DNA from: a virus
Virus record (IMG/VR): IMGVR_UViG_3300037196_000543
Span: 1 to 20,838 of that record
Strand: one strand, 5' to 3'
Length of the DNA: 20,838 nt
Below the pieces are notes generated by a model. The model was not told the origin of the DNA. It was given only the letters and a program-made list of their open reading frames with translations, and searched no databases. A program made the translations under genes and the position numbers. Shown here piece after piece: positions 2,356 through 19,944 of this stretch (positions are counted from its first letter, which is position 1; each line of letters begins with the position of its first letter).

Positions 2356-5300
2356 TCAACCCGCGTAGTAAGTTGGAATGGAGCCACTTGCAGGTACCAA
2401 GTAGATCGCTTCACTCGTGTACTGCAGCCACTGAAAAGTGACCGATTTTGAAATTCCCTTGTCAGTCACTGACACGGTTATGTTGTTGCTTCCCGTTGAG
2501 CCAACTAATGACCCGGTCAGTTGAATCAGAGCCACCGCACTGCCTGAAGATCCAGTTACAGATGTTACAGTTGCCGAAACTCCTGGTACTGAAGTGGATG
2601 CTGAAATAGTGCTAGTTGAAGTAGAAATCACTCCAGTTGCAACCACATAGAACGACATGTTCGGACGAGGACTGACTGAACTGATGTTACCAGCATCCAC
2701 TCCTCCTACGAATCCACTTGGAGATCCTCCTGCAACATAGTCCGGCCCTGACACCAGATGCAAGTTAGAAGCTACAGTCAGAGACAAGGTCCTTGTGACA
2801 TAGGCTGTGGTAGAATCTGTCAGCCGGAAAGTGAAGCTGTATGTTCCAACCGCAGTCGAAGTGCCTGTGATAGCTCCAGTCGAAGCATTCAGATTCATGC
2901 CAATTGAAGACAAAGAAGCTGCTGAGGAAGGATCAATCGACCAAGAATAAGCTCCCACACCGCCAGTTCCAGTCAGAGTGGCGGCGCTGTAAGCCACTCC
3001 TGCTGTTGAGTTAGGAAGTGAAGAAGTGGTAATGACCAGAGTCGTATTCTGAACCCTGATGCTGAGAGTGGCTGAAACCCCGGTGTCTCCAGTGTATCCA
3101 GGGACTCCAGACAAAGCCGCATTCAAACTGTCAGTGGCCGTCACAGTAAAGGTCGAAGTGCCAGTTGCAGAAGGAGTTCCAGATATCACTCCTCCAGAAC
3201 TCAGAGTCAGCCCAGTTGGGAGACTTCCAGAAGTGAGAGCCCAGCTAACAATCGGAGGATTGTTGGTGGTGGCCGCCAGGGTAGTGCTGTAAGTGCCTCC
3301 AGCAATTCCATCCGGTACAGCAATGGTTGTAACCTTGACCGATGACACAGTCGTGAAAGGAACAGGACCCGTGAAATTCTGTCCTAGGCTGTCCTGCACC
3401 ATGAAGGTGTAGTTGGCCGCCGTGAGAACTAGGTCACAAGTTCCCGAAAGTCCACCGTTGTAAGTGTATCCACTTCCACGAGTCATCTGTAAATAGTTGG
3501 GAAATGCAGGTACTCCCGTGTAGTTCCAGGTATAGGGTGGGGTGCCTCCTAGAGCACCTAGAGTTCCAATGTATCCCTGTCCACCATAGGGAGCACGAGT
3601 GATCGGACCAACACCAGAAATATCAATTGACATGGTGTTAACAGTAACTGAAATCGTAAACACCTTTGAGGTTGTGACACTAAGGCTATCAACAACCTGA
3701 ATCGTCACAGATTGAGGTCCTGACAATGTTGCCGGCCCAAGGCCACTGATAGCACCACTTGAATCCATTGTGATTCCTGCAGGGAATCCTCCTGCAATCA
3801 CTGACCAAGTGTATCCTAGACCAGATCCTCCACGAGCCGACATCTGAGCATTGTAGTAAGCCGATTGTGTTACGCTTGGAAGAGGAGAAGTGTTAATAAT
3901 GATCAGAGAGTCATTCAGAGTGATCGGCAGGGAAGTAGTTGCCTTCACCCCTCTCGAGTCTGTGAGCGTGATCCCCAGAGTGCTCGAGAAAGCCGTGAGT
4001 GCTGTTGTTCCAGAGATAATTCCATTGGGGATCGCAACCGGCAACGATGAAGTTGAAGGTGTGAATCCTGAAGGAAGACTTCCACTGGTCAGTGCCCAAG
4101 TGTACGGTCCGACTCCTCCAACTCCCTGCAAAGCATCACTGTATGCGATAGACGGGAAGATCTGATCAAGATAACCTGTGAGGATCGCCAGAGGAGTGAC
4201 ATACTTGGAAACGAATCTCTTGTAGAGGAACCCAACCGCCCCGGTTGTCGCTATGACCTTGAACCAGACATCAAAGTATCCGGATTCCGTAGTCGTTCCC
4301 GCGACCGTCACTTGTGTTGGAGTCACGCTGTTGACCACTGCTGTGATTCCAACAGGGAGCCGTCCTGCAACGATGGACACCGAAGACAAAGTTCTGTCGG
4401 CTTGAATTGACCCAGAATACGGAAGCTGAATGGTGCAATAGGGACTTCTGGGATCACCAAGATTATCGGTCAAAATCACCACACCAGCATAGTTGTTCCA
4501 AGTGATCGTGACTGTTCCAGTAGTCACATTGGCAACTATGTAGTTCAGGACTGTCGAATAGACATTGGTGGAAGTGAGGTATCCATAGATCAATCCAGAA
4601 CTTGAATCCAATGACAAGCCGCCCGGCAGGAAAGATCCAGTTGCCAGCGAAACTGTGCAACCTGCTCCTTTGCCGAACGATGGTGAGTTGAAGAAGGGCT
4701 TCAGTGGATTCAGGGTTACTAGATTTCCGACTAGATACGGAATAGCTGAAGAACTCAAGTTTCCACCCACAACCGCCAAAGTTGCGCTGTTGGAGTTCTC
4801 CACTGTGTACTCATGGCTGACAGTTGCCACCTGATTTCCTGCAGCGAGAATTGGAACCGAAGTCGTTCCATTGGCACTGCCGAAGAAACTGGGAGAAACT
4901 ATCTGCTGGAAGACCAAGTCTCCGCTCGTCAGAGTGATGCTGATTCCGTTTGCCGAAGTTGCTGAGTACGAACCCAGGGTCAACCCAGACAAGTTCGAAG
5001 AATCGAGGGGAAGAGAAACTGTCGTTGTTGTATCCCCTGATTCCCAAAGATGGTCAACAATCGGATTGTACAATCCAACATTGGCAACCTGAAGACCGAC
5101 CGTGTAATTGACACTTAGGTTTTCGGTGTGGGAAGCAGAGTCAGTAACCAAGAAAGATAGGGTCTGAATTCCAATTTTATCAACTGTTGGAGTCAGAAGA
5201 AATTCCCAACGACCGTCAATCAAGGATCCGGAAGATGTGATACCGGCTCCGTCAGTCATGACTACAGTGTAAGGTCCAACTCCACCAAAGATTCCCAATC

Positions 5301-7176
5301 CGATTCTGAACGTCTCTCCAGCAAAGACTACTGGCAACTGAGAAGGATCCAAAGTCAAAGTGGCAGGAAGAAGATCGATACCAAAGTACTGCATGGCAAC
5401 GGCTCCAATGGCATCAGCCACTTGAATCGTTACAAAGAACGGTGTCGTGAAATCAATTGTGGAGTTGTTTGTGGTCGGATATCCGCTTATGAGACCGGCA
5501 GAATTCACGATCACATTGTTGGGCAAACCACCAACTGAACCTGGAGTAACTGACCAAGTGAACGGCGCAATGCCTCCTGTATTCAGCATCTGGTAGGAAT
5601 AGCTCGCCATCACTTGTGCTGAAGGCAAGTAGACATTTCCGTTGATGATGGGAAGACCAGTTGTGTTGATCGCCAGGTTGCTACGAACAGCGACGTCTAC
5701 AACAATAGTATCGATGAATTCCGGGTTGCTGCTGTCACTCACTGAGAAGGTACACTGGTAGATTCCCAGAACCATCGGAGTTCCTGTTAGCGTTCCATCA
5801 ATTGAAAACTTGAGACCATAGGGAAGATCTGCAGCGTACCAGCTGTAAGGAGCGATTCCTCCAGAAGCCGTGAAGCTGATTTCATCCATCGGTAGACCAG
5901 CAATCACATCAATTTCAGGAGTCGTTCCTACCGCATTCACCAAAGGAAGATTGGAAGAATTGATGACTACTGGAGAACTGCTGGAAGTTGCCGCTGTGAG
6001 AGCAGGTGTGATATCCATCAGATCCTGCACCTGAGGTCTTCCAATGAGCGGAAAGACATCTGCTGCCATGGTGCCCAGGATTGAACTGGCGTTCTGGTAG
6101 CGAGACAATGCCACCAGCAGCTTCAATTCATTGGTCACCGTGTCGCGAACCAAAGATCTCATGATCACAGCATAAGGTTCGGGAACTCCTCCAGCCAGAG
6201 CGTCTGTGATCTCGAAGCCGGTGGTGCCATACATGCCCACCGTTCCCGTGATGATTTCTGACGAGGCCTGAGTTGGAACCCAAACTGAATTGCTGACAAA
6301 GATCGATTTGGTGATGGACCGGCGAAGTTGAACTGCCGGCGAGGCAGTCGAGTAGTCATTCTGGACTTCAACTGAAAACGTGACCGCACCAGAATTGCCA
6401 AAGATATGGCTGACCGTCTGTACACTGATGGGAAGCCAGGCAGTTGCCCCTGTTGAGAATACCAGACGCCACTGAGATGCACCAGTGTAAGTGCCAGATA
6501 ATGAAATGAGAACTGGCTGGTTGATCTGAGCCGTGGTTAGGTCAACTGCCACCGAACTGTCAGTGAAGACGCTTGGAAAACTGAGGTAGTTTGTCCATCC
6601 AGGAGCATCGGCATAGTCCGGATCAGCCGACAGGGCCTGCATCTTGACACTGTATCCGTCCAAGGTTACAGTCGTCCGGAAAGAACGTGAACTGAGGGTT
6701 CCTCCAAACTCCAAACCTGTGGGAAGATTTCCTCCCACCGACTGAAGTAGAGGATCAGTGGGATTAGAAGCCGCGATCAGCCAGATATTCCAGTCATTGT
6801 AAACGGAGTATCCACCGTTGACTGCAGCAGGATTCCAAGCCAGTGTCAGAGTGAGATCCTCTTCAATATATCCCAAAGTGATGGCATCCTGAAGAGGAGT
6901 TGGATTAATGGCGAGGCTGATGGTTGTTGTGGCTGTCTCTGCGGTCGGAGTAGTGGAATCTACGACTGAAAATGCCACTGAGTACGGTCCAATGGCCGAC
7001 AACGATGGAGTTCCAGTGATCGCTCCGGTAGCAGTATTGAGCACCAGTCCATTCGGGAGACCTGCTGCACTGTATGTGTACGGAGTGATGCCTCCAGTAG
7101 CCACCACGGCATTGCTGTAAGCGATGCCTGCTGTACCACTTGGAAGAGAAGTCGTAGAGAAAACCAAAGTTGACAT
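2356..7176 (-). CDS. Giant putative-Ig repeat adhesin (about eleven He_PIG-like modules, 1606 aa)
   Basis: The protein is built from roughly eleven tandem immunoglobulin-like modules. Each has the He_PIG pattern: an aGvaYs-type strand, GGvgPYtW, LPsGLtls..G.IsGTP, and a closing FTVtvtDs strand. Clear examples start near residues 13 (SGTAGIAYS, AITGTPSLSAIGPYSV), 470 (SFTASGGIAPYSW, TLTGTPMVLGIY), 1350 (SGSLPTGLTLSSGGVISGTP) and 1420 (AGVAYSAATLTG). Such arrays are known in phage tail fibres and bacterial surface proteins, where they bind carbohydrate or act as spacers. The start is ATG 7176, with GGAG a few bases upstream and the TAG of the preceding gene at 7189-7187. The stop overlaps the ribosome-site region of the next gene. 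No signal peptide or sortase/anchor motif was seen, which favours a virion protein over a host-surface one. Function is inferred. Confidence 0.85.
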   Translation of the reverse strand: MSTLVFSTTSLPSGTAGIAYSNAVVATGGITPYTYSAAGLPNGLVLNTATGAITGTPSLSAIGPYSVAFSVVDSTTPTAETATTTISLAINPTPLQDAITLGYIEEDLTLTLAWNPAAVNGGYSVYNDWNIWLIAASNPTDPLLQSVGGNLPTGLEFGGTLSSRSFRTTVTLDGYSVKMQALSADPDYADAPGWTNYLSFPSVFTDSSVAVDLTTAQINQPVLISLSGTYTGASQWRLVFSTGATAWLPISVQTVSHIFGNSGAVTFSVEVQNDYSTASPAVQLRRSITKSIFVSNSVWVPTQASSEIITGTVGMYGTTGFEITDALAGGVPEPYAVIMRSLVRDTVTNELKLLVALSRYQNASSILGTMAADVFPLIGRPQVQDLMDITPALTAATSSSSPVVINSSNLPLVNAVGTTPEIDVIAGLPMDEISFTASGGIAPYSWYAADLPYGLKFSIDGTLTGTPMVLGIYQCTFSVSDSSNPEFIDTIVVDVAVRSNLAINTTGLPIINGNVYLPSAQVMASYSYQMLNTGGIAPFTWSVTPGSVGGLPNNVIVNSAGLISGYPTTNNSTIDFTTPFFVTIQVADAIGAVAMQYFGIDLLPATLTLDPSQLPVVFAGETFRIGLGIFGGVGPYTVVMTDGAGITSSGSLIDGRWEFLLTPTVDKIGIQTLSFLVTDSASHTENLSVNYTVGLQVANVGLYNPIVDHLWESGDTTTTVSLPLDSSNLSGLTLGSYSATSANGISITLTSGDLVFQQIVSPSFFGSANGTTSVPILAAGNQVATVSHEYTVENSNSATLAVVGGNLSSSAIPYLVGNLVTLNPLKPFFNSPSFGKGAGCTVSLATGSFLPGGLSLDSSSGLIYGYLTSTNVYSTVLNYIVANVTTGTVTITWNNYAGVVILTDNLGDPRSPYCTIQLPYSGSIQADRTLSSVSIVAGRLPVGITAVVNSVTPTQVTVAGTTTESGYFDVWFKVIATTGAVGFLYKRFVSKYVTPLAILTGYLDQIFPSIAYSDALQGVGGVGPYTWALTSGSLPSGFTPSTSSLPVAIPNGIISGTTALTAFSSTLGITLTDSRGVKATTSLPITLNDSLIIINTSPLPSVTQSAYYNAQMSARGGSGLGYTWSVIAGGFPAGITMDSSGAISGLGPATLSGPQSVTIQVVDSLSVTTSKVFTISVTVNTMSIDISGVGPITRAPYGGQGYIGTLGALGGTPPYTWNYTGVPAFPNYLQMTRGSGYTYNGGLSGTCDLVLTAANYTFMVQDSLGQNFTGPVPFTTVSSVKVTTIAVPDGIAGGTYSTTLAATTNNPPIVSWALTSGSLPTGLTLSSGGVISGTPSATGTSTFTVTATDSLNAALSGVPGYTGDTGVSATLSIRVQNTTLVITTSSLPNSTAGVAYSAATLTGTGGVGAYSWSIDPSSAASLSSIGMNLNASTGAITGTSTAVGTYSFTFRLTDSTTAYVTRTLSLTVASNLHLVSGPDYVAGGSPSGFVGGVDAGNISSVSPRPNMSFYVVATGVISTSTSTISASTSVPGVSATVTSVTGSSGSAVALIQLTGSLVGSTGSNNITVSVTDKGISKSVTFQWLQYTSEAIYLVPASGSIPTYYAG

Positions 7177-12660: not shown

Positions 12661-12697
12661 GGCCCTTGGATTTTTGATAATCCAAGGGTCTTTTTGT
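12661..12697 (+). terminator. Rho-independent terminator after the lipoprotein gene
   Basis: A perfect 10-bp stem, CCCTTGGATT (12663-12672) with AATCCAAGGG (12079 bases into the block, 12679-12688), closes a 6-base loop TTTGAT. It is followed at once by TCTTTTTG. It starts 18 bases after the TAA of the lipoprotein gene. This is one of the two clearest terminators in the window and it isolates the lipoprotein gene from the endonuclease gene downstream. Confidence 0.93.
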
Positions 12698-12714
12698 CTT
12701 CTCATTTCCAGACC

Positions 12715-13110
12715 ATGGGTGGAAAATGGGTACATCGAATTTCCAATATTGATGAAAGTACCAAGACAGGCCTGTGCTTAAATTGTGGACCAGTCAAACT
12801 CAAGTTTCTAAAAGGTCAGAAGAGATGGGCCTGCAGAATACAAAGTGAAAACTGGAGTTGGCGAGGCATTTACATCAGAAGCACTGGAATTACCTATGAA
12901 CAGTTTATGAAAAAGATGAAGTCAGTAGAAGGCAAGTGTGAGATCTGTGGAAGTGATCTAAATCCAGTATTTGATCATGACCATAAGACCAATAGAGCTA
13001 GAGGAATTCTTTGTAGGGACTGTAATACAGGACTAGGATTGCTCAAAGAAGATCCCAGTGTTCTTTTGTCAGCTATTCGATATCTTGAAAAGGAGTACCC
13101 TCGTTTCTAG
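12715..13110 (+). CDS. Endonuclease VII-like HNH nuclease, probable free-standing homing endonuclease (131 aa)
   Basis: The motifs match the recombination endonuclease VII (His-Me finger) family. An N-terminal CxxC (Cys21, Cys24) is followed by CEICG (Cys75, Cys78), FDHDHKT (Asp-His-Asp-His at 87-90), then RGILCRDCNTGLG (Cys100, Cys103, Asn104) and the typical end SAIRYLEKEYP. The four Cys near the active site bind structural zinc, and the DHDH plus Asn form the metal-dependent cleavage site. The start ATG 12715 lacks a clear ribosome site, and a TTG at 12694 inside the terminator tail is less likely. The gene is more AT-rich than its neighbours and is orphan-like, which fits a mobile nuclease. 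Its 3' end overlaps the converging 241-residue gene by 38 bases. Confidence 0.88.
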   Translation: MGGKWVHRISNIDESTKTGLCLNCGPVKLKFLKGQKRWACRIQSENWSWRGIYIRSTGITYEQFMKKMKSVEGKCEICGSDLNPVFDHDHKTNRARGILCRDCNTGLGLLKEDPSVLLSAIRYLEKEYPRF

Positions 13111-13798
13111 TTCTTCTTTTGAGCATCAAACGAGAGACAATCCTGACTGAACCCTTCTTCTCAATTTTCTTAATCCACGACGGAGGTATCGTCACAGCGA
13201 TAGAGATGTCAGCACCTTTCAACATCGGATGCTGGGCAAGCAGAGCGTTGTCGTCCTCATATCTCATGTCCGGAACTATGTATCTGTAATATTCCGGAGG
13301 TACGACAAACTTGACTTCCACCTTGGTGGAATCAAACACGAAACCTGACGGCTGATCAATTGTACCGAAGGTGCTCTGGCCCTCTTCACCGCCGTTCAGA
13401 CCTTGCCTCTTGATGCTGTCCATGTACTTGGCAAAGGTCTCATGATAGACCGGAAGTCCATTGGGATACCTGGCTCTGAGATTGTACTGGAATGGAGAAT
13501 CCCCTGTGAGACGGATGCCCCAGGGATTCATGTCGCTGTCAAGGACTGACCTTACTTCGCTAGAGAATCCCACCAGATACAGAGAGTTGAATGGGACATG
13601 CCAGAACTGCTGGGGAGCGAGATGATCTTCAGAGTCGTCATCCACCCATGCCTTCATCCGAACAACATCGGACATGCGATAGACACGTTCCTTAAGACGC
13701 AGAAGGATGTGTTCCATCGCCTCTGCAGGAACATGCTTAAACTGGATGGGAACCCAGGGTCCTGGTTTTAGAATTGTGTGATCTGACGGAGGCGGCAT
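13073..13798 (-). CDS. Hypothetical protein (241 aa)
   Basis: ATG 13798 immediately follows the TAG of the upstream 46-residue gene (TAGATG, no gap), so it is probably translated by coupling; no close ribosome site is visible. The protein is soluble, rich in aromatic and charged residues (LAPQQFWHVPFNSLYLVGFS, VEVKFVVPPEYYRYIVPDM) and ends in a very basic tail (RIVSRLMLKRRTRNEG). No signal peptide, membrane segment or catalytic motif was recognised. Family unknown. Position suggests an early or accessory phage gene. Confidence 0.75.
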   Translation of the reverse strand: MPPPSDHTILKPGPWVPIQFKHVPAEAMEHILLRLKERVYRMSDVVRMKAWVDDDSEDHLAPQQFWHVPFNSLYLVGFSSEVRSVLDSDMNPWGIRLTGDSPFQYNLRARYPNGLPVYHETFAKYMDSIKRQGLNGGEEGQSTFGTIDQPSGFVFDSTKVEVKFVVPPEYYRYIVPDMRYEDDNALLAQHPMLKGADISIAVTIPPSWIKKIEKKGSVRIVSRLMLKRRTRNEGTPFQDIE

Positions 13799-13939
13799 CT
13801 AGGTTAGCTGCACACCCTTTCCGAACACGAACTCAGCAAGCACCTGTGACTGCTGGTCGGCGGGAGTCTGAGCCAGAAGCTGCTCAAGTTGGGCTGCGGT
13901 CTTCTTGATCTCGGCTTCCTTATTGATCTGCTTCTTCAT
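13799..13939 (-). CDS. Small hypothetical protein (46 aa)
   Basis: A short gene: ATG 13939, stop TAG 13801-13799. AGGGGGAAA ends 3 bases before the start, a good ribosome site. The peptide begins MKKQINKEAEIKKTAAQLEQ and continues as a charged, coiled-coil-like helix, then VLAEFVFGKGVQLT. It abuts the 241-residue gene without a gap, so the two should be co-translated. The leader contains the long palindrome at 13954-14004. Function unknown. Confidence 0.75.
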   Translation of the reverse strand: MKKQINKEAEIKKTAAQLEQLLAQTPADQQSQVLAEFVFGKGVQLT

Positions 13940-13953
13940 GGCTTTCCCCCTGT

Positions 13954-14004
13954 TCTATTCTACGGAGATTTCCCATGAAACGGGTAATCTCTACCTAGAA
14001 TAGA
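13954..14004. repeat. Long imperfect palindrome in the leader of the 46-aa gene
   Basis: The outer arms TCTATTCTA (13954-13962) and TAGAATAGA (13996-14004) pair perfectly over 9 bp. The inner arms GAGATT (13965-13970) and AATCTC (13986-13991) add 6 bp. After one mismatch, CCC / GGG (13972-13974 and 13982-13984) close a 7-base loop. No T-run follows on either side, so it is not a standard terminator. On the minus transcript it lies between the stop of the 47-residue gene and the ribosome site of the 46-residue gene. An RNA-processing site, a translation-control hairpin or a protein-binding operator would all fit. Confidence 0.7.
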
Positions 14005-14008
14005 GAAG

Positions 14009-14152
14009 TTAAAATCCGGTCAATTCGACTTCGTACTCGAAGGCATCCTGCTTGATCTTGTAGACGATTCCTTCACGAACCAGCTGGGCGAGGAACTTGG
14101 CAAGACGCAATTCGCAAACATCTTCGTTTTTGTCGAACCGGATAGATTTCAT
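14009..14152 (-). CDS. Small hypothetical phage protein (47 aa)
   Basis: ATG 14152 with GGAGGG five bases upstream, a much better start than the longer upstream frame that would run into the tmRNA terminator. The peptide MKSIRFDKNEDVCELRLAKF continues through AQLVREGIVYKIKQDAFEYE and ends VELTGF. It resembles a small winged-helix-like or helix-plus-beta-hairpin protein, but the family is not recognised. It is the first gene of the short minus operon leading to the 46- and 241-residue genes. Confidence 0.8.
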   Translation of the reverse strand: MKSIRFDKNEDVCELRLAKFLAQLVREGIVYKIKQDAFEYEVELTGF

Positions 14153-14204
14153 TGTTTCCCTCCACCTCTCTCTACGGAGTTCGTGCGAGTTCCAGCTAAC
14201 AAAT

Positions 14205-14232
14205 GTCAAAAGAAAAGGCCTCCGAAGAGGCC
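14205..14232 (-). terminator. Terminator of the tmRNA gene (UUCG loop)
   Basis: On minus, GGCCTC (14232-14227), a TTCG tetraloop (14226-14223) and GAGGCC (14222-14217) form a 6-bp GC-rich hairpin followed by TTTTCTTTT. A canonical intrinsic terminator placed at the 3' end of the tmRNA coding half. Confidence 0.92.
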
Positions 14233-14305
14233 CTCTCTTTGCCACGTGATCCCGGTTTATCCAGGACCTTCTGTTGCTAGGATCGTAACCGACCCCCGAC
14301 AGCGA

Positions 14306-14392
14306 TTAAGCTGCCATTGCCAGCGGAGCGAACGAACGGACCGGGAAGGCCAGGACGTTGCTACGACGGGCGCTGATACCATTGTCGGTAGC
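14306..14392 (-). other. tmRNA proteolysis-tag reading frame (28 codons)
   Basis: The tag frame of the tmRNA, from the GCT resume codon (14392-14390) to TAA (14308-14306). The encoded tag begins ATDNGISARR, close to the common ANDN start, and ends APLAMAA, a typical small hydrophobic-Ala degron like those recognised by ClpXP. At 28 residues it is long; common bacterial tags are about 8-15. The stop codon sits in the loop of a 6-pair hairpin, GGCAGC-TTAATC-GCTGTC (14315-14298), the usual place for the tag stop in helix P5. There is no ribosome site because translation resumes by trans-translation. Confidence 0.8.
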
Positions 14393-14482
14393 AGTTATTG
14401 TTTCTGTGTCCGATTACGGAGGGCCACAGCGTACCGAGTTGTTATCTCTGGTCAGTTCCAATTGTCGAATCTGTTCGCCCCC

Positions 14483-14566
14483 ATCATAAGCACTCTGGTT
14501 CCCAACTTCTGAACAGTCTCTTCTCCAGCGACCGTATGAAATTCTAGGCGAAGTGGAGAGTGCTTA
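14483..14566 (-). other. Intervening segment joining the two tmRNA halves
   Basis: This 84-nt segment lies between the CCA end of the acceptor half and the first G of the coding half, and should be removed during maturation. Its ends are complementary: ATAAGCACTCT (14567-14557, including the last A of CCA) and AGAGTGCTTAT (14496-14486) pair perfectly over 11 bp. Together with the acceptor stem and two of three junction pairs they make a nearly continuous 21-position helix. This shape, acceptor stem extended into the intervening loop, is expected for a permuted tmRNA precursor presented to RNase P and 3'-end nucleases. Confidence 0.8.
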
Positions 14567-14713
14567 TGGTGGAGGCGCGGGTCTATGCTAACCCGGTCCA
14601 AATGGCACATCACTTTGACTTCAGCTCCGAAGAGCATACAACCATATAGATAGTCTACTGGCTATATTTGAATTCCAGGTACATCAGTAGTATCTTTAGA
14701 GAGGTGGCGAGAT

Positions 14714-15472
14714 TTGAACAAGCGTCTGGTATACACGGTCTATAAAACCGTGAACAAAGCAAACGGTAAGTTCTACCTTGGAGTTCATAAGACTTCAAAT
14801 CCGATGGATGAGTACTTAGGTTCTGGTACTTACATCAAGCGAGCCGTTGCAAAGTATGGTCAATCTGGTTTCACGAAAGAAATCCTCTTTGAGTACGAAA
14901 CTCAAGAAGAAGGATGGGACAAGGAGGATGAACTCATTGAGTTGAATCGGAATAATCCTCTTTGTACAAACATACGGAAAGGAGGTTCTGGAGGATTTGA
15001 TTATATCAACAAAAATGGATTACTGACTATGTCAGACGAGACTAAAGCTAGGTGTACTGCTAAGCTGTTAAACTGGAGGAAAGAACATCCTAATGAAATC
15101 AAAGAGAATGCTCGAATAGCTAATCTAACTAGAAGCAAGCAGTGGAAGGGAGGTAAGCATACAACTGAAGTTTGTCATAGAATCTCAGAAGTGAGTAGTG
15201 GACCACACAATAACATGCATGACAAGAAATGGGTACATCATCCTGAATTGGGATTTAAGGCCGTTCTTCTAGATGAAGTACAATCGTATCTAGATGCTGG
15301 ATGGCTACTTGGAAGAATTAGATATCGCAAGACTACTCATTCAACTTATGGTAAGATTTGGATAAATAATGGAGAAAGAAACAAATTGGTGTCTAATCTA
15401 GAAGAGTTTCCAGGATGGAAACGTGGAAGATTGATGACTATGATACAACGCAGTTTTGCTTCCATCTCTTGA
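14714..15472 (+). CDS. GIY-YIG homing endonuclease (Seg-like, 252 aa)
   Basis: TTG start at 14714 with GAGGTGG about 8 bases upstream (14701-14707). Residues 7-90 form a GIY-YIG nuclease domain: YTVYKTVNKANGKFYLGVHK (YLG at 21-23), EYLGSGTYIKRAVAKYG, FTKEILF, acidic KEDELIE near 70-76 and CTNIRKGGSGG. This is the layout of T4 Seg-type enzymes. The C-terminal half has two short repeats, KWVHHPELGFKAV...YLDAGWLLGR and KIWINNGERNKLV...FPGWKRGR, typical of DNA-recognition repeats appended to such nucleases. It is AT-rich relative to its neighbours and starts about 75 bases from the tmRNA gene in divergent orientation. Free-standing enzymes of this kind usually cut alleles lacking them and spread with flanking DNA. 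Confidence 0.9.
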   Translation: MNKRLVYTVYKTVNKANGKFYLGVHKTSNPMDEYLGSGTYIKRAVAKYGQSGFTKEILFEYETQEEGWDKEDELIELNRNNPLCTNIRKGGSGGFDYINKNGLLTMSDETKARCTAKLLNWRKEHPNEIKENARIANLTRSKQWKGGKHTTEVCHRISEVSSGPHNNMHDKKWVHHPELGFKAVLLDEVQSYLDAGWLLGRIRYRKTTHSTYGKIWINNGERNKLVSNLEEFPGWKRGRLMTMIQRSFASIS

Positions 15473-15475
15473 AGA

Positions 15476-15544
15476 TTGTGTCCACGCGAAACCCGAAGGT
15501 CAGAACTTGTGTCCACCAGGTACCAAACTCAGGCTCCGCGTGGA
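15476..15544. repeat. Inverted and direct repeats between convergent genes
   Basis: TCCACGCG (15481-15488) and CGCGTGGA (15537-15544) form a perfect 8-bp inverted repeat spanning 48 bases. TTGTGTCCAC is also directly repeated at 15476-15485 and 15507-15516. The pair lies between the stop of the GIY-YIG gene and the stop of the 54-residue minus gene. There is no T-run, so terminator function is doubtful. Confidence 0.5.
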
Positions 15545-15555
15545 ACCTAGAAAAA

Positions 15556-15720
15556 TCAGTATGTGATCGCGACCTTCATCTTGCGGAAGCGGTCGACTGC
15601 CTGCTTTGAGTGGTCAACTGCTTGCGCGGTCTGCTTCTTGGTTTGTTCCCAGAAAGAAACCATCGCCTTCCAGCAGGATTCACCGTTCAAAACCACTTTG
15701 CCGTTGACTTCAACATTCAT
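15556..15720 (-). CDS. Small hypothetical protein (54 aa)
   Basis: The peptide MNVEVNGKVVLNGESCWKAM continues as a charged amphipathic helix (FWEQTKKQTAQAVDHSKQAV) and ends KMKVAITY. ATG 15720 is preferred because GGTGAT, complementary to the end of 16S rRNA, lies four bases upstream; an ATG at 15726 would add two residues. Composition is protein-like and the other frames are not. Function unknown. The hairpin-rich region lies directly upstream. Confidence 0.72.
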   Translation of the reverse strand: MNVEVNGKVVLNGESCWKAMVSFWEQTKKQTAQAVDHSKQAVDRFRKMKVAITY

Positions 15721-15988
15721 TTTCATCACCATTCAAGTGGGAATCAGGCTGCGGGCCATCTGGGCGTCGTCCCACCCGATCCGCTCCCAGACAGTTCTGT
15801 CTTGCGACAGGCCGCAGCCCTCACCCTCGTTAGGAGATAGACATCTCCTGAAATTTGGGTGGAGTCAGTCGCCCTTCTCCAACTCTCAAGATTCTGGCAT
15901 CCGTCAATGTCCATGAGAGACCACTCCACTTCGTGGTTTTAAGTATTTCCTGTGGGTGATAGGCGTGGTGCAACGCCTTGTTTTGCTT

Positions 15989-16042
15989 CTAGGGTCGGGG
16001 AGGGATTGCTCCCTCCCGGATCACCCTCTCCTGCTGCTGCAT
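15989..16042 (-). CDS. Possible mini-ORF (17 aa)
   Basis: ATG 16042 with a perfect GGAGG 7 bases upstream (16054-16050), encoding MQQQERVIREGAIPPRP and ending TAG. The last part of the frame is the 8-bp GCAA-loop hairpin at 15998-16017. It could be a leader peptide, or the ribosome site could be chance within a structured RNA. Low confidence. Confidence 0.3.
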   Translation of the reverse strand: MQQQERVIREGAIPPRP

Positions 16043-16096
16043 ACAAATACCTCCGCAGCGAGTTCTCGCTCCACTGATTAGCTGCTCGTTAGGCAG

Positions 16097-16132
16097 CTAG
16101 AAATCGTCACCAAAGAAATAGCCATCGCGCAT
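16097..16132 (-). CDS. Possible mini-ORF (11 aa)
   Basis: ATG 16132 with GGAG 7 bases upstream (16143-16140), encoding MRDGYFFGDDF and stopping at TAG. The stop codon is part of the 7-bp hairpin TAGCTGC/GCAGCTA (16079-16099). A stop followed immediately by a strong hairpin is the arrangement of leader peptides, but there is no T-run. It may also be a very small phage protein. Confidence 0.35.
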   Translation of the reverse strand: MRDGYFFGDDF

Positions 16133-16204
16133 GGGAAGTCTCCTGTACAGATCTCACCTTGACGAGTGAATGATACTACTCTACCGAAGAAAACGGGAAA
16201 TCAG

Positions 16205-16441
16205 TTATTTTGCCCCAAGAGTGGGCTGGGTGCCGGTCACAAATTCTACATGCCTGATTTCCTTGGCCGTCTGTTCCGGAGTGGCTTCGACGGTTTCCAG
16301 GTGCCTATCCATGTTGGGCTCTACCATCCGTTCACCCAGTGAAGGACTTTCGGCGCTGATGAAGGCGACTGGACTCAGCTTGATCATGAGTTCTCCCTTG
16401 AATCGGAAGAGACTCTTGATTGGGATTTCTGCGAATGTCAT
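16205..16441 (-). CDS. Small phage protein with FxFKGELxIKLS motif (78 aa)
   Basis: ATG 16441 with GAGG six bases upstream; the TAG of the GIY-YIG gene lies 9 bases before the start. The N-terminus MTFAEIPIKSLFRFKGELMI-KLS matches a pattern seen in small phage and bacterial proteins ('f-dlpvGt-F-f-g--wiKls', an SH3-like small barrel). The C-terminal half is polar and acidic. Function unknown. Last normal-sized gene of the 19498-16205 operon before the hairpin region. Confidence 0.78.
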   Translation of the reverse strand: MTFAEIPIKSLFRFKGELMIKLSPVAFISAESPSLGERMVEPNMDRHLETVEATPEQTAKEIRHVEFVTGTQPTLGAK

Positions 16442-16450
16442 GTTATGCCT

Positions 16451-16996
16451 CTAGACTGGATACGCTACTTCAGCGAGTTTCCTTCTCTTGCCGGCGGAAA
16501 TAGCCGCGCACTCTTCCGGAGAGCGTTTCTTGCCCAGTCTTCCTCTAGCAAAGGACTGAAGAGTTGCCAACGCAAGCGGGTGTGGTACTCTTCCTTTCTT
16601 CAACGCAGATTGACTATCACAGAATTCCTTAGTCCTTTTCTTTCCTATATTTGCTCTGCGGATTCTTTCAACCACTTCTCTAGGCATCTTCCAACCAGAC
16701 TTACCTTCTCCACCAAGGGTCTCGTTGTAGCCACTACCCAAAGAGGCAAGCGTACCTTGTGATTTGATGAACTGCTTCTCGAGATCATTCAACAAACTGA
16801 CTTCGCAGCAAGCAAGTTCCTGAATGGAAAAGTTGGAAGCACCATACTTTCGGATGGCCCGATACAGAGCAAAGTCAAGTCCGCTTTTTGCGTTGGCGAC
16901 ATGGTCCTTCCATCTCCCAGCCACCGATTTCGAGGTTTGTCCAACATACTTCTTCTGATTCACCAAGTTGACAATAAGATAGATGAATCCATTCAT
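16451..16996 (-). CDS. GIY-YIG homing endonuclease with NUMOD3-like repeats (181 aa)
   Basis: The start ATG 16996 overlaps the stop of the preceding gene (ATGA). The nuclease domain fills residues 4-95: FIY (4-6), KKYVGQT with YVG at 17-19, conserved Arg28, LYRAIRKYG, Glu73 in DLEKQFI and Asn91 in YNETLGG. All the expected catalytic positions are present. The rest holds two or three NUMOD3-like DNA-binding motifs (GKKRTKEFCDSQSALKKG, GKKRSPEECAAISAGKRR). Unlike the other nucleases here it sits inside an operon on minus. A longer upstream frame lacks nuclease homology and overlaps the preceding gene. The enzyme would cut a specific phage target to promote its own spread. Confidence 0.9.
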   Translation of the reverse strand: MNGFIYLIVNLVNQKKYVGQTSKSVAGRWKDHVANAKSGLDFALYRAIRKYGASNFSIQELACCEVSLLNDLEKQFIKSQGTLASLGSGYNETLGGEGKSGWKMPREVVERIRRANIGKKRTKEFCDSQSALKKGRVPHPLALATLQSFARGRLGKKRSPEECAAISAGKRRKLAEVAYPV

Positions 16997-17160
16997 ACCT
17001 GATAGGTTCCTTCGAAACAGTCTTTGACATCCTGAAGTCCACAAGTACACTTTGGAGGAGGCTTCGTTCCGCCTTCTGCCACCTTCTTGTTCCACTCGCT
17101 CACTTTGCACTCAGGTGTGTGCTCAGCTTGCTCGAGGTACTCTTGTGCCTTGCTTAGCAT
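16993..17160 (-). CDS. Small Cys-rich, possibly zinc-binding protein (55 aa)
   Basis: ATG 17160 lies inside the end of the 791-residue gene (38-base overlap), and the stop overlaps the start of the GIY-YIG gene (ATGA), so translation is probably coupled on both sides. The peptide MLSKAQEYLEQAEHTPECKV carries His14 and Cys18, followed by CTCGL (Cys38, Cys40), a plausible single zinc site HxxxC-19-CxC. No strong ribosome site. Function unknown. Confidence 0.68.
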   Translation of the reverse strand: MLSKAQEYLEQAEHTPECKVSEWNKKVAEGGTKPPPKCTCGLQDVKDCFEGTYQV

Positions 17161-19498
17161 TTTCGGTTGCCCACTTGGTGATGATTCCATCCCAGGGTGT
17201 CTTCTGAGAGTTTGCTCTCTTCCAGGATGCAACGCGGCGGTCCCAGGATGACGATTTGTACTTGTTCACAGCCTCTACGAAATTCTTGGGAAGTTCAATC
17301 TCGATCTTGTAGTAGGACTCAGTCTGCTTGGCATTGAACGGAGCAACCAATGCTCTGGCTTTCTTCAGATAATCACGGAGCCAGCGAAGCTCAGTGTCAA
17401 TCTTGGGATCGTCCTCATCCTTCTTGAGAGCATCGTTCATCAAGCGAAGCAAGCTGGTGCAGTAGTTGGTACGAGGAGTGCTGTACTTCAGATCTCTGAA
17501 TTTGTCTTCCTTTTCACTACCTGCCAGAGCCGCTTCCATCTCCGCACGATACTTTTGGAGCTTTCCGTACTCAACCGCTGTGAGATCAGCACCTTCAAGT
17601 TTCTGACCACACAGCTTCTCATACTTCTTTATGATCTCTGGCATGCGATTTTTCTTATCATCTGCCAGAAGTGAAAGTAGCAGTTGCTCGAGCTCAGGCC
17701 ACCGCTTGGGAGCAATGTGAGGAGGAGACGTCCATCTCTCTTTGGAACCATAGGAATTTGTGTTATTGAACGCGAACTCGCCTGAAGTTCCGCCGTAGTA
17801 ATACATCATGTCGTAGTCATCTTTGACTGCAATCATGGCTGCTTCAAGACTAGCATCACGCTCCTTGTAATTCTTGAAAGCGTTGAATGTCAGCACATCT
17901 CCGAATCTCGTAGAACAGCAAGCCAGAACGAGGTCATGAAGATCCTGGCGCCAAGGCGACGAGCATCTGTAGTAGTATTGCTTGAGGAAGGCCTCCAGCT
18001 TGTTTCCGACCTTTTCGATGCCGGTAGTCTCAGTGTCGTATGAATCCTTGGTAGTCGGAGGCGGAGTTGCCACTCCCTGCTTCAGCAAGGCAATTGCTGC
18101 TTCTTCGAACTCTGGCCAAGGCTTCTCATCATTGACTCTGAGATAGGTGTTGCTAACGAAGTTCTGTTTGTAATAGGTGAGGACTGCCTGCAGGTCGTTC
18201 ATGGTCATCTTCTGCAGCAGGTACGGCTCTGCGGCGGCCACCTTAGAGTTGGCACTTTGAGAAGAACTCCGACGGTAGTTGGACTCCCATTGCAGTTGCT
18301 TGATGAACCAAACCACATCAGCGAACTTGGCTGACGGAAGCCACTGATCAGCCAGATCCTGGACAATCTTCTGTCCTTCCGGCTTGTTGAGCGGAGTCTT
18401 GCCATCATCCTTGAACATGTACTGAGAGAATGGAACCTTGTTCAACTCGAACAACTGAGCGAGCGAGAGAGTTCCCTTTTCCTTCTTCTTCTCGATGGTT
18501 TTCTCGATCTTCGCACGATCAGTCAGGAATGGCTTCAGAGTTTCAGGTACTGGCTGCTTGTTAGCCTTGAACCACTTCTGGAGCTTCGCTACGAAGGCTC
18601 TGCATTGAGCATCAGTCACGTAGGAGAATCCACGCAGGGGAGTCTGAGTCGCAAAGGGTGAGTCCTTGGGATTCAGGAAGTTACCGCCGTTGGGATCCCA
18701 CTGAGCATAGTGGGCTCCGTTCAGGAAGAAGACGTAGTCAGGACCCTTCTGAAGATAAGAAGCGGCAGTGCCCTCGTTCTTGGTGCACCAGTTGGTTCCT
18801 TGTGACAGAGCCGAGAGAGCACGAGGATCAGTGACCTTGACGATCTGGTATCTGCCCTCTGTAGGAACGAAGGGATCATCGTGTCCATCCTTCGATTTCT
18901 GGCAGACACTGCAGGTCATCTTGTCGTCATATTTGGGCTTGAATTCATGAGGCTCAAAGGAAGCAGCCGTCTCTCCGGATTCATCCACAATGAGTTCGGC
19001 GCCAGCGAAGTTCTTGCCACTCAGGATCTGATCTTTGACCTTGTCAAAGTTCGCGTCCATCCACTCCCTTTTGGCACTCTCAGACATCTGGTCCCAAGTA
19101 ACTTCAGGAGGAGCCACAGGTGCCTCTTCTCCCTGCTCGAGATTCGATTCTCCTTCACCCACGGCGTCATAGAGAGTTGCTGGAGTGTACTTGAAAATGT
19201 CCTTCTCACCCTTGAACTTGGGAGACCGGCGGAGTTTGTTGAAGATCGCCAGCTGCTTGTTGATCTTCTCGATGTCTTCAGGAAGATTGATGAGCTTGGT
19301 GTTGGGCTGGCCCTTGGTGATCGACTTGTTGCCCTTATACATTGATGCAATCCACTGGACATAGTCCTTTTCCGTTGGATCGGCATCAATGCACCACTCG
19401 ATTTCCTGATCTGTGAGACCTTGAGTCTTCAACAATTCTAACTTGGCTTCAGTAGGTCTGGCCAGTATCAGAAGGGAGGCGGTGAAGTATGAAGTCAT
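17123..19498 (-). CDS. Large phage protein of unknown function with GTNWCT motif (791 aa)
   Basis: ATG 19498 with AAGGAAG about 8 bases upstream; first gene of the minus operon. The N-terminus (residues 25-115: TDQEIEWCIDADPTEKDYVQ, then WIASMY, EDIEKINKQLAIFNKL, DIFKYTPATLYDAV) resembles a conserved module of large-phage proteins. A CxxC (CSVC near 194-197) is followed by a domain with VTDPRALSALSQGTNWCT (near 218-236), YLQKGPDYVFFLNGAHYAQW and a Gly/Asn-rich turn. That 'G-T-x-W-C-T ... Y ... G' signature recurs in phage proteins, and I know of no demonstrated function for it. The C-terminal 500 residues are mostly alpha-helical and charged. No transmembrane segment. Not a standard structural protein. 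Its function should be treated as unknown. Confidence 0.82.
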   Translation of the reverse strand: MTSYFTASLLILARPTEAKLELLKTQGLTDQEIEWCIDADPTEKDYVQWIASMYKGNKSITKGQPNTKLINLPEDIEKINKQLAIFNKLRRSPKFKGEKDIFKYTPATLYDAVGEGESNLEQGEEAPVAPPEVTWDQMSESAKREWMDANFDKVKDQILSGKNFAGAELIVDESGETAASFEPHEFKPKYDDKMTCSVCQKSKDGHDDPFVPTEGRYQIVKVTDPRALSALSQGTNWCTKNEGTAASYLQKGPDYVFFLNGAHYAQWDPNGGNFLNPKDSPFATQTPLRGFSYVTDAQCRAFVAKLQKWFKANKQPVPETLKPFLTDRAKIEKTIEKKKEKGTLSLAQLFELNKVPFSQYMFKDDGKTPLNKPEGQKIVQDLADQWLPSAKFADVVWFIKQLQWESNYRRSSSQSANSKVAAAEPYLLQKMTMNDLQAVLTYYKQNFVSNTYLRVNDEKPWPEFEEAAIALLKQGVATPPPTTKDSYDTETTGIEKVGNKLEAFLKQYYYRCSSPWRQDLHDLVLACCSTRFGDVLTFNAFKNYKERDASLEAAMIAVKDDYDMMYYYGGTSGEFAFNNTNSYGSKERWTSPPHIAPKRWPELEQLLLSLLADDKKNRMPEIIKKYEKLCGQKLEGADLTAVEYGKLQKYRAEMEAALAGSEKEDKFRDLKYSTPRTNYCTSLLRLMNDALKKDEDDPKIDTELRWLRDYLKKARALVAPFNAKQTESYYKIEIELPKNFVEAVNKYKSSSWDRRVASWKRANSQKTPWDGIITKWATENAKQGTRVPRAS

Positions 19499-19533
19499 CA
19501 GATTGCTTCCTTAGACAGAGTCATCAGTTGGGA

Positions 19534-19944
19534 ATGAATTTCTCAACAGCACAGCAGAAGCTGTGGAAACTCGTTCTCTTCAACCTGGTTAAGAAAGCTG
19601 AAGTCAATATTTGTATTCATTGCGGAAAATTGATTGAAACGGTTCGAGAACTGAGCATCGCTCACCGACAGAAGTGGTTCGATGTCAATCCAGATTTGTT
19701 CTGGGATCTGGACAATATCGGTTTTGCTCATCTCCATTGCAATATAAGTGATGCTTTCAAAGGTAAAAAGAAAACTTCTCCCAAGCAACTGGCAGTTATG
19801 GCGGCTGCTATGGAACGATCCAAACAAAGAAGGGAATCTGCAACTCATGAGGAGTTGGTAGAGTGGTCAAATAAGGCTCGTTCCGCAAGGAAATTCTTCG
19901 GTCGTGACGAGAAAGGTCACTATGTGAAGAAACCTCAGCAGTAG
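19534..19944 (+). CDS. HNH endonuclease, probable homing type (136 aa)
   Basis: A His-Me finger nuclease: CIHCG (Cys27, Cys30), ELSIAHRQKW (His44), LFWDLDNIGFAHLHCN (Asn61, His66, His68, Cys69, Asn70), then a basic helical tail (FKGKKKTSPKQ, ERSKQRRES). This is the C-x2-C...H...N...H-x-xCN layout of phage HNH homing enzymes. ATG 19534 is preferred because the family-like text starts at MNFSTAQQKLWKL. An in-frame ATG at 19489 has a good GGGAGG upstream (19474-19479) but would overlap the divergent 791-residue gene's start by 10 bases. The gene lies alone on plus between two minus operons. Confidence 0.83.
   Translation: MNFSTAQQKLWKLVLFNLVKKAEVNICIHCGKLIETVRELSIAHRQKWFDVNPDLFWDLDNIGFAHLHCNISDAFKGKKKTSPKQLAVMAAAMERSKQRRESATHEELVEWSNKARSARKFFGRDEKGHYVKKPQQ

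Follow-up and report, generated by a model that had tools for sequence, protein, structure and literature searches.

Permuted tmRNA gene in the window

The IMG/VR record analysed here (the window, 20.8 kb) carries a circularly permuted tmRNA gene on its minus strand, in the order acceptor piece ending CGCCTCCACCA, intervening segment (IVS) of 84 nt and coding piece starting GGGGGCGAACAGATTCGAC at 14482 (Table 1). The minus strand from 14626 to 14306 matched the Rfam model RF04321 (tmRNA_permuted) with 64.8 bits (E 1e-10, cut-off 47), and RF01849 (alpha_tmRNA) was also above its cut-off in the window (61.6 bits against 50, E 5.4e-15), both by cmscan with curated thresholds. These matches to two Rfam models rule out a chance resemblance to tmRNA. 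An earlier, sequence-only reading of this DNA had proposed a permuted gene with the CCA-bearing piece ahead of the coding piece and had named the Rfam two-piece models as a check, and both the gene order and the model matches agree with it.

The acceptor stem is formed by CGCCTCC (14577–14571) and GGGGGCG (14482–14476) with seven of seven pairs, G3-U70 included, and ACCA is encoded, with the CCA end at 14567. Counted from G1, the resume codon GCT (14392–14390) is nucleotide 91; the tag frame reads ATDNGISARRSNVLAFPVRSFAPLAMAA, and its stop TAA (14308–14306) lies in a hairpin loop closed by six base pairs, GGCAGC/GCTGTC. The perfect acceptor stem, the alanine resume codon at this nucleotide, the tag frame with its stop in a hairpin loop and the UUCG terminator had all been described in the earlier reading and were recovered as described. 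The fold of the whole precursor beat 100 of 100 shuffles (z -4.4), and acceptor stem and IVS together reached z -6.7 against shuffles.

Table 1. Features at the permuted tmRNA locus, in window coordinates.
Feature	Position	Strand	Basis
Acceptor piece: helix 2 3' strand, T-arm CGGGT/ACCCG (loop TAGCATAG), CGCCTCC, ACCA	14567–14626	-	RF04321 and RF01849 alignments, sequence
IVS, 84 nt, predicted hairpin: terminal stem TAAGCACTCT...AGAGTGCTTA, then TGAT	14483–14566	-	identity with G001, fold z -6.7
Acceptor 5' strand GGGGGCG, first bases of coding piece	14476–14482	-	7/7 pairs with CGCCTCC
Alpha-type coding piece, with 3' motif GCAACAGAA at 14277–14269	14259–14482	-	RF01849 match reaches 14259
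Tag frame: resume GCT, 28 codons, stop TAA	14306–14392	-	sequence reading and model alignment
UUCG intrinsic terminator GGCCTC-TTCG-GAGGCC with T-run, common to G001	14208–14232	-	sequence, G001 alignment
Left block differing from G001: endonuclease and acceptor piece up to CGCCTCCACCA	14578–15475		alignment with G001
Right block differing from G001: coding piece to just before terminator	14248–14475		alignment with G001
Homing endonuclease ORF beside acceptor piece, not at this place in G001	14714–15472	+	phrog_314, E 2.7e-32

The other check named in that reading gave a different result, as ARAGORN called no tmRNA in the window, although the same tool calls the tmRNA of the related contig G001. 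The T-loop TAGCATAG is non-canonical, and several pairs of helix 2, for which the earlier reading had counted 8 of 10, are flagged as non-standard in the RF04321 alignment. The ARAGORN miss and the partly non-standard helix 2 suggest that the gene is a divergent tmRNA member. The same divergence might be taken to mean that the phage RNA is a decoy or inhibitor of the host tmRNA rather than a working tmRNA, as might the finding of SmpB genes in none of the 14 phage records searched, which are possibly fragments; the accessible part of PMC11915505 cites an inhibitory tmRNA without a CDS from phage DS6A. However, the gene still has its tag frame with resume codon and stop hairpin, its acceptor identity and its terminator, and rescue would rely on host SmpB, which could serve it. 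We therefore consider a decoy quite unlikely.

Phage origin and relation to known tmRNAs

The earlier description of the genome as phage-like is consistent with its source in IMG/VR, with the Baseplate_J protein and UvsX-like recombinase encoded by the relatives G006 and G004, respectively (in the sequenced stretches examined), and with homing endonuclease-type genes around the locus. The relatives are contigs of 11–187 kb, several of which contain tRNA genes, and the 143.6-kb G006 carries the same tmRNA gene (1 mismatch over 14120–15518). Neither the tmRNA region of the window nor its 791-aa neighbour had a match among 50,697 isolate phage records; the tmRNA of another viral locus (L115) matched one isolate record, Xanthomonas phage Rb1, across 22% of the query.

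A permuted tmRNA borne by a phage is already published. According to the accessible part of PMC9004378, phage Melnitz encodes a two-piece tmRNA, and 53 two-piece forms occur among 133 unique phage tmRNA structures; PMC11915505, again in its accessible part, covers 79 phage tmRNA sequences and uses the term intervening sequence for the portion that is cut out. When IMG/VR was scanned by pattern, at least 119 stretches matched, with RF04321 above cut-off in 113 of 119 records among the matches listed. In one phage contig (L028:526–5928), a permuted tmRNA gene closes a run of 13 tRNA genes.

The window gene agrees with the tmRNAs of RF04321 and RF01849 in gene order, in the acceptor stem and 3' alpha motif, and in the resume codon, tag and stop, and differs from them in lying in a phage genome and in sharing its IVS with a different tmRNA type of a relative. 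Its tag has 28 codons, whereas the most frequent tag length is 10 according to the accessible part of PMC11915505. Phage Melnitz and other aquatic phages likewise encode a two-piece tmRNA; the Melnitz ssrA has a predicted glutamine riboswitch, and exchange of the IVS is not described in the accessible part of that paper (PMC9004378). The new aspect with respect to the published phage two-piece tmRNAs is the excised IVS. No paper title on shuffled IVSs or on linkers flush with CCA ends was found in the literature covered, most subscription journals being outside its scope.

Replacement of both tmRNA pieces around a retained IVS

The flanks of the locus are closely similar in G001 (28.8 kb), with 98.8% identity to the window over 13114–14247 and 99.1% over 15476–16464 (a wider range of flank identity being 91–99%). 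The IVS is also shared (first 60 bases identical, 96% overall), the terminator is identical and the DNA beyond it is nearly the same. The two contigs differ in the acceptor piece outside CGCCTCCACCA and in the coding piece after GGGGGCG, and their coding bodies are 41% identical. With RF04321 the G001 tmRNA scored 103.1 bits; its best clan model was beta_tmRNA (67.9 bits, below the cut-off of 84) compared with alpha for the window copy, and ARAGORN reads its tag as AEPYALPMAA. A near-identical IVS between differing pieces suggests that the mutually pairing parts were both replaced and the discarded part retained. Judged from this alignment, in which the G001 state is known from one contig, both mature tmRNA pieces are swapped around a common IVS.

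Such a mosaic could in principle result from misassembly or bacterial contamination, the sequences being metagenome contigs and G001 a single one. However, many contigs have the same pattern and the window-type locus recurs in G006. The common stretches beside the IVS (11 and 7 nt) are moreover shorter than usual assembly k-mers. An artefact of this sort is highly improbable.

The ORF at 14714–15472 is assigned to the GIY-YIG type through profile similarity to the ORF at 16451–17110, having no Pfam match of its own, and alignment against L132 places the limits of its insertion at 14603–15475. There are four nuclease-type genes in the window (12694–13110, 14714–15472, 16451–17110 and 19489–19944), an endonuclease VII-like, two GIY-YIG-type and an HNH gene, and the alignment of the window with its relatives breaks at or near them. 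An endonuclease adjacent to the tmRNA might act by intronless homing, cutting tmRNA alleles that have no endonuclease beside them so that repair copies both the endonuclease and the resistant tmRNA. In keeping with this, G001 lacks the whole block made up of the endonuclease and the alpha-type acceptor piece, and this phage group has several such endonuclease genes, which vary between relatives. However, had one conversion tract been copied from a donor whose IVS differed, the IVS would have been replaced too, yet it stayed. A homologue of the four queried endonucleases was detected near the tmRNA in only one of 56 other distinct loci (L042), and homing is thus not the general cause. We regard homing as an unlikely explanation overall; locally, the neighbouring endonuclease may have driven the replacement of the tmRNA in this way.

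Exchange of IVSs and bodies among phage tmRNAs

Viral loci were picked by pattern with an IVS length of 65–95 nt; after loci cut at contig ends had been dropped, 104 of 121 were kept, representing 58 distinct tmRNA genes. Five pattern loci without a match to a tmRNA model were also dropped (L016, L019, L045, L094 and L104). Among the 1653 pairs formed by these distinct genes, 26 had an IVS identity of at least 95%, and in 13 of the 26 the coding bodies were less than 85% identical; pairs that belong to the same IVS family are not independent. More than one distinct tmRNA occurs in eleven IVS families, eight of which include bodies less than 85% identical. The 71-nt IVS of L041 and L046 was 100% identical in 11 of 11 contigs with four body types, between which body identity was 0.44–0.64 and two of which have differing T-arms; all 11 loci of this family could be parsed, and in the other family analysed with it 24 of 51 loci were unparsed or cut. 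The converse, a body at least 85% identical with an IVS below 75%, was observed in 13 pairs, most sharply in L005/L110 (body 0.98, IVS 0.59) and L033/L100 (0.99 and 0.62).

A tmRNA-pattern scan of bacterial genomes was tried as a control and rejected. When 25 pattern-hit bacterial genomes were searched with RF04321, a permuted tmRNA was over the cut-off in 10 (best-scoring loci only). The scan itself returned 60 stretches, none of which contained any of 21 RF04321 loci, and those with six to seven acceptor pairs resemble coding sequence. The pattern hit L170 is not a tmRNA either. With none of these loci inside a pattern stretch the scan was unusable, and alphaproteobacterial loci were used instead; the order of an Azospira genome, with three of 60 genomes over the cut-off (best-scoring loci only), was set aside. 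Among the alphaproteobacterial permuted tmRNAs (best-scoring loci only; 50 of 59 parsed, nine unparsed), none of 1225 pairs had an IVS identity of at least 95%. IVS length was 10–70 nt in this set versus 65–95 nt in the phage set, which had been selected for that length. On these comparisons, a retained IVS with replaced bodies appears to be general among phage permuted tmRNAs.

An IVS could be shared without any exchange if purifying selection acted on the excised RNA, and one interior family does have a conserved, covarying structure (see below). Three observations argue against it: among 43 compared interiors only six pairs beat the best shuffled pair, near-identical tmRNAs have different IVSs (the L005/L110 and L033/L100 pairs), and the same interior is found behind different genes. 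Purifying selection in place of exchange is very unlikely.

Hairpin linkers flush with tRNA CCA ends

A 19-mer from one IVS family matched 50 viral stretches, and in 14 of these the same sequence, of about 90 nt, was found outside tmRNA, directly after a tRNA-like 3' CCA (L308, L312, L313, L320, L321, L322, L324, L325, L327, L329, L330, L334, L335 and L339). L315 is ambiguous in this respect. In L312 such a linker fills the interval between the end of tRNA-Arg at 2130 and the start of tRNA-His at 2225, and L308 and L313 are alike. Rfam 15 had no family at E≤1 at the linker in three linker-bearing loci. A terminal inverted repeat starting from the CCA, with a score of 11–17, was present in 14 of 163 distinct tRNA 3' contexts in phage loci, some of which had been included because of the element; the others scored 9 or less.

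The consensus of the terminal repeats is CCATATNNAARCACATTA...TAGTGTGYTTNNATATGG. A strict selection pattern (CCATAT...ATATGG) matched at least 120 viral stretches and none of 398 bacterial genomes of the phylum of a Pararhizobium genome. Of 121 strict elements parsed among the matches listed, 90 were exactly flush with the CCA of a called tRNA (tRNA-Lys in 57 of the 90), and at 31 no tRNA was called. A relaxed core gave 185 elements with strands merged (the 346 unmerged matches count near-palindromes on both strands). Of the 185, 110 follow a tRNA (109 of them at a distance of exactly 5 nt) and 50 precede one, 39 doing both, the flush fraction expected under random placement being 4.6%. Seven are located in tmRNAs. 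The remaining 57 abut neither a called tRNA nor a called tmRNA, and a T-loop motif is nearby in only seven of them. Linkers also follow CCA-ending sequences without an ARAGORN tRNA call in L367, L369, L444, L454 and others, and these sequences are possibly other small RNA genes.

Against isolate phages or plasmids, three linker queries had no match, or none better than E 8; two longer queries including tRNAs matched on their tRNA parts, with two pieces in two Salmonella records. GOLLD (RF02032), which is a structured RNA known from the tRNA arrays of phages, occurs in an array that also has a linker (L339). The GOLLD model has 416 positions, whereas the linkers were found to be about 65–125 nt long and tRNA-flush.

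The IVS of the window has a terminal inverted repeat starting at the CCA end, TAAGCACTCT/AGAGTGCTTA, and its terminal stem AAGCACTCT/AGAGTGCTT compares with AAACACTCT/AGAGTGTTT of L312 and L335. The R1 structure (24 linkers of one family, in both tRNA and tmRNA contexts) was searched without filters in the window and L132 together (29.7 kb), and the top hits were their IVSs, with 21.3 bits (E 0.0016) and 22.8 bits (E 0.00065), respectively. In the window the stem alone was aligned, and it is a near-palindrome that scores 16.6 on the opposite strand. The window was absent from the filtered R1 search at E≤1, and none of 59 bacterial tmRNA loci gave an R1 hit at that threshold. Besides the window itself, the interior of its IVS was found in G001 and G006 only and behind none of the tRNAs; an interior in common with tRNA-borne linkers holds for other tmRNA IVSs (L111 and the L002/L029 group). 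As far as can be read from the sequence, the window IVS belongs to the linker family by its terminal stem only.

Exchange of linker interiors and conservation of structure

Clustering of 177 linker interiors (with the real tmRNAs L015 and L090 left out) gave 97 families. One family of 13 members, eight of which were aligned, occurs behind tRNA-Gln, tRNA-Lys, tRNA-Glu, tRNA-Thr and one uncalled gene; also among its members is the IVS of the L111 tmRNA. The phage contigs L313 and L321 are about 92–97% identical over long stretches; at tRNA-Glu the linker interior has been exchanged and the repeats kept, and at tRNA-Leu the tRNA body has been exchanged and the linker kept. This double exchange is the same pattern as that of the window and G001 tmRNAs.

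The terminal helix of the IVS is paired in 470 of 552 cells across 46 representatives (shuffle mean 341, maximum 371), and TGAT is found at the IVS end in 40 of the 46. In the R1 structure, both-sided changes were seen in seven of 25 predicted pairs, a count reached by none of 500 shuffles and by slid structures to at most one; further pair types are less telling, their count being reached by 37 of 500 shuffles. Among 97 distinct strict elements the seventh pair covaries (AT 50, TA 24, GC 16, CG 2); at the eighth position, 56 elements have an A-C or C-A mismatch. By reading, the ACCA/TGAT junction of the tmRNA form is comparable, with a single C-A mismatch. In the alphaproteobacterial set, 25 of 50 IVSs end in TGAT and the stem-plus-TGAT layout is frequent, so that the stem layout alone is not phage-specific. 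It probably predates the phage cassettes.

The conserved terminal repeats, the precise placement at 5 nt from the tRNA end and the occurrence of one interior behind different tRNAs, with swaps ending at the repeats, would also suit a true mobile DNA element of a site-specific, integron-like or MITE-like kind, which targets CCA ends and exchanges its interior enzymatically. Integron attC sites have RYYYAAC/GTTRRRY ends and the recombinase IntI. Like the linkers, they fold into a hairpin, follow the 3' end of a gene and have conserved ends around a variable interior. However, inspection of the repeat consensus by eye revealed no recognisable attC end motif. An equal footprint would be left by homologous recombination at repeated stems, and covariation of the terminal pairs suits selection on RNA and folding of single-stranded DNA equally. 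A dedicated mobile element is thus, like homing, an improbable account of the linkers.

Proposed explanation

It is probable that the locus and its relatives are best explained as an alpha-type permuted phage tmRNA in which both pieces have been replaced around a recombining hairpin linker flush with the CCA. The comparisons described above directly show how the gene is organised, that the IVS was kept, which parts were exchanged and that linkers are placed at CCA ends. The permuted, alpha-type gene would belong to a large tailed phage; its transcript probably starts upstream of the acceptor piece, ends at the UUCG terminator and would then be cut at the CCA and at G1. The resulting two-piece tmRNA would add the 28-residue tag together with the host alanyl-tRNA synthetase, EF-Tu and SmpB. 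During infection it might tag proteins or redirect ribosome rescue, as the earlier reading proposed.

The excised IVS would be a hairpin linker from a large recombining family, whose repeats are placed flush with the CCA of a tRNA or of a tmRNA acceptor piece and often also with the 5' end of the next gene. Its interior is exchanged between genes and phages, as comparison shows for the family; in the window, the terminal stem and the retained IVS are what is seen. The most likely role of the linker would be that of a link between mature tRNA-like ends, serving RNA processing or stability, with tRNA processing enzymes removing the hairpin from the transcript. Its repeats may double as crossover points for phage recombination that harm neither RNA, with which the UvsX-like recombinase of G004 is in line, and in the lineage of the window both mature tmRNA pieces would have been replaced while the linker was retained.

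A broader proposal is that the linkers constitute an undescribed class of exchangeable, CCA-flush, repeat-ended hairpin cassettes that punctuates phage tRNA arrays and splits tmRNAs, and that may be mobile, the cassette or the neighbouring tRNA or tmRNA body being exchanged exactly where CCA and repeat meet; each may also be released as a small stable RNA with an interior of its own. We hold this only tentatively, at somewhat under an even chance. Phage tRNA arrays and permuted tmRNAs would gain a common building block, and a manner in which phages might swap entire tRNA or tmRNA bodies with the transcript undisturbed is suggested. The maturation of a CCA end buried in a hairpin becomes a testable question. 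If released, the linkers would make up a new and large group of small RNAs in phages, and if mobile, they would be a new way to shuffle RNA genes.

Additional features of the contigs

At L037:5090–5180, an IVS and coding piece like those of L033 were found with an unrelated acceptor piece upstream and no tmRNA called by ARAGORN, and this contig is chimeric or the gene broken. The GOLLD RNA of L339 lies at 6032–6498 on the minus strand (RF02032, 217.8 bits) and overlaps tRNA-Asn in the phage tRNA array. In the window itself, positions 2356–7176 of the minus strand encode a protein of 1606 aa that contains five stretches of He_PIG (putative Ig) and adjoins a 1318-aa protein without a Pfam match, and the two are perhaps virion surface proteins.
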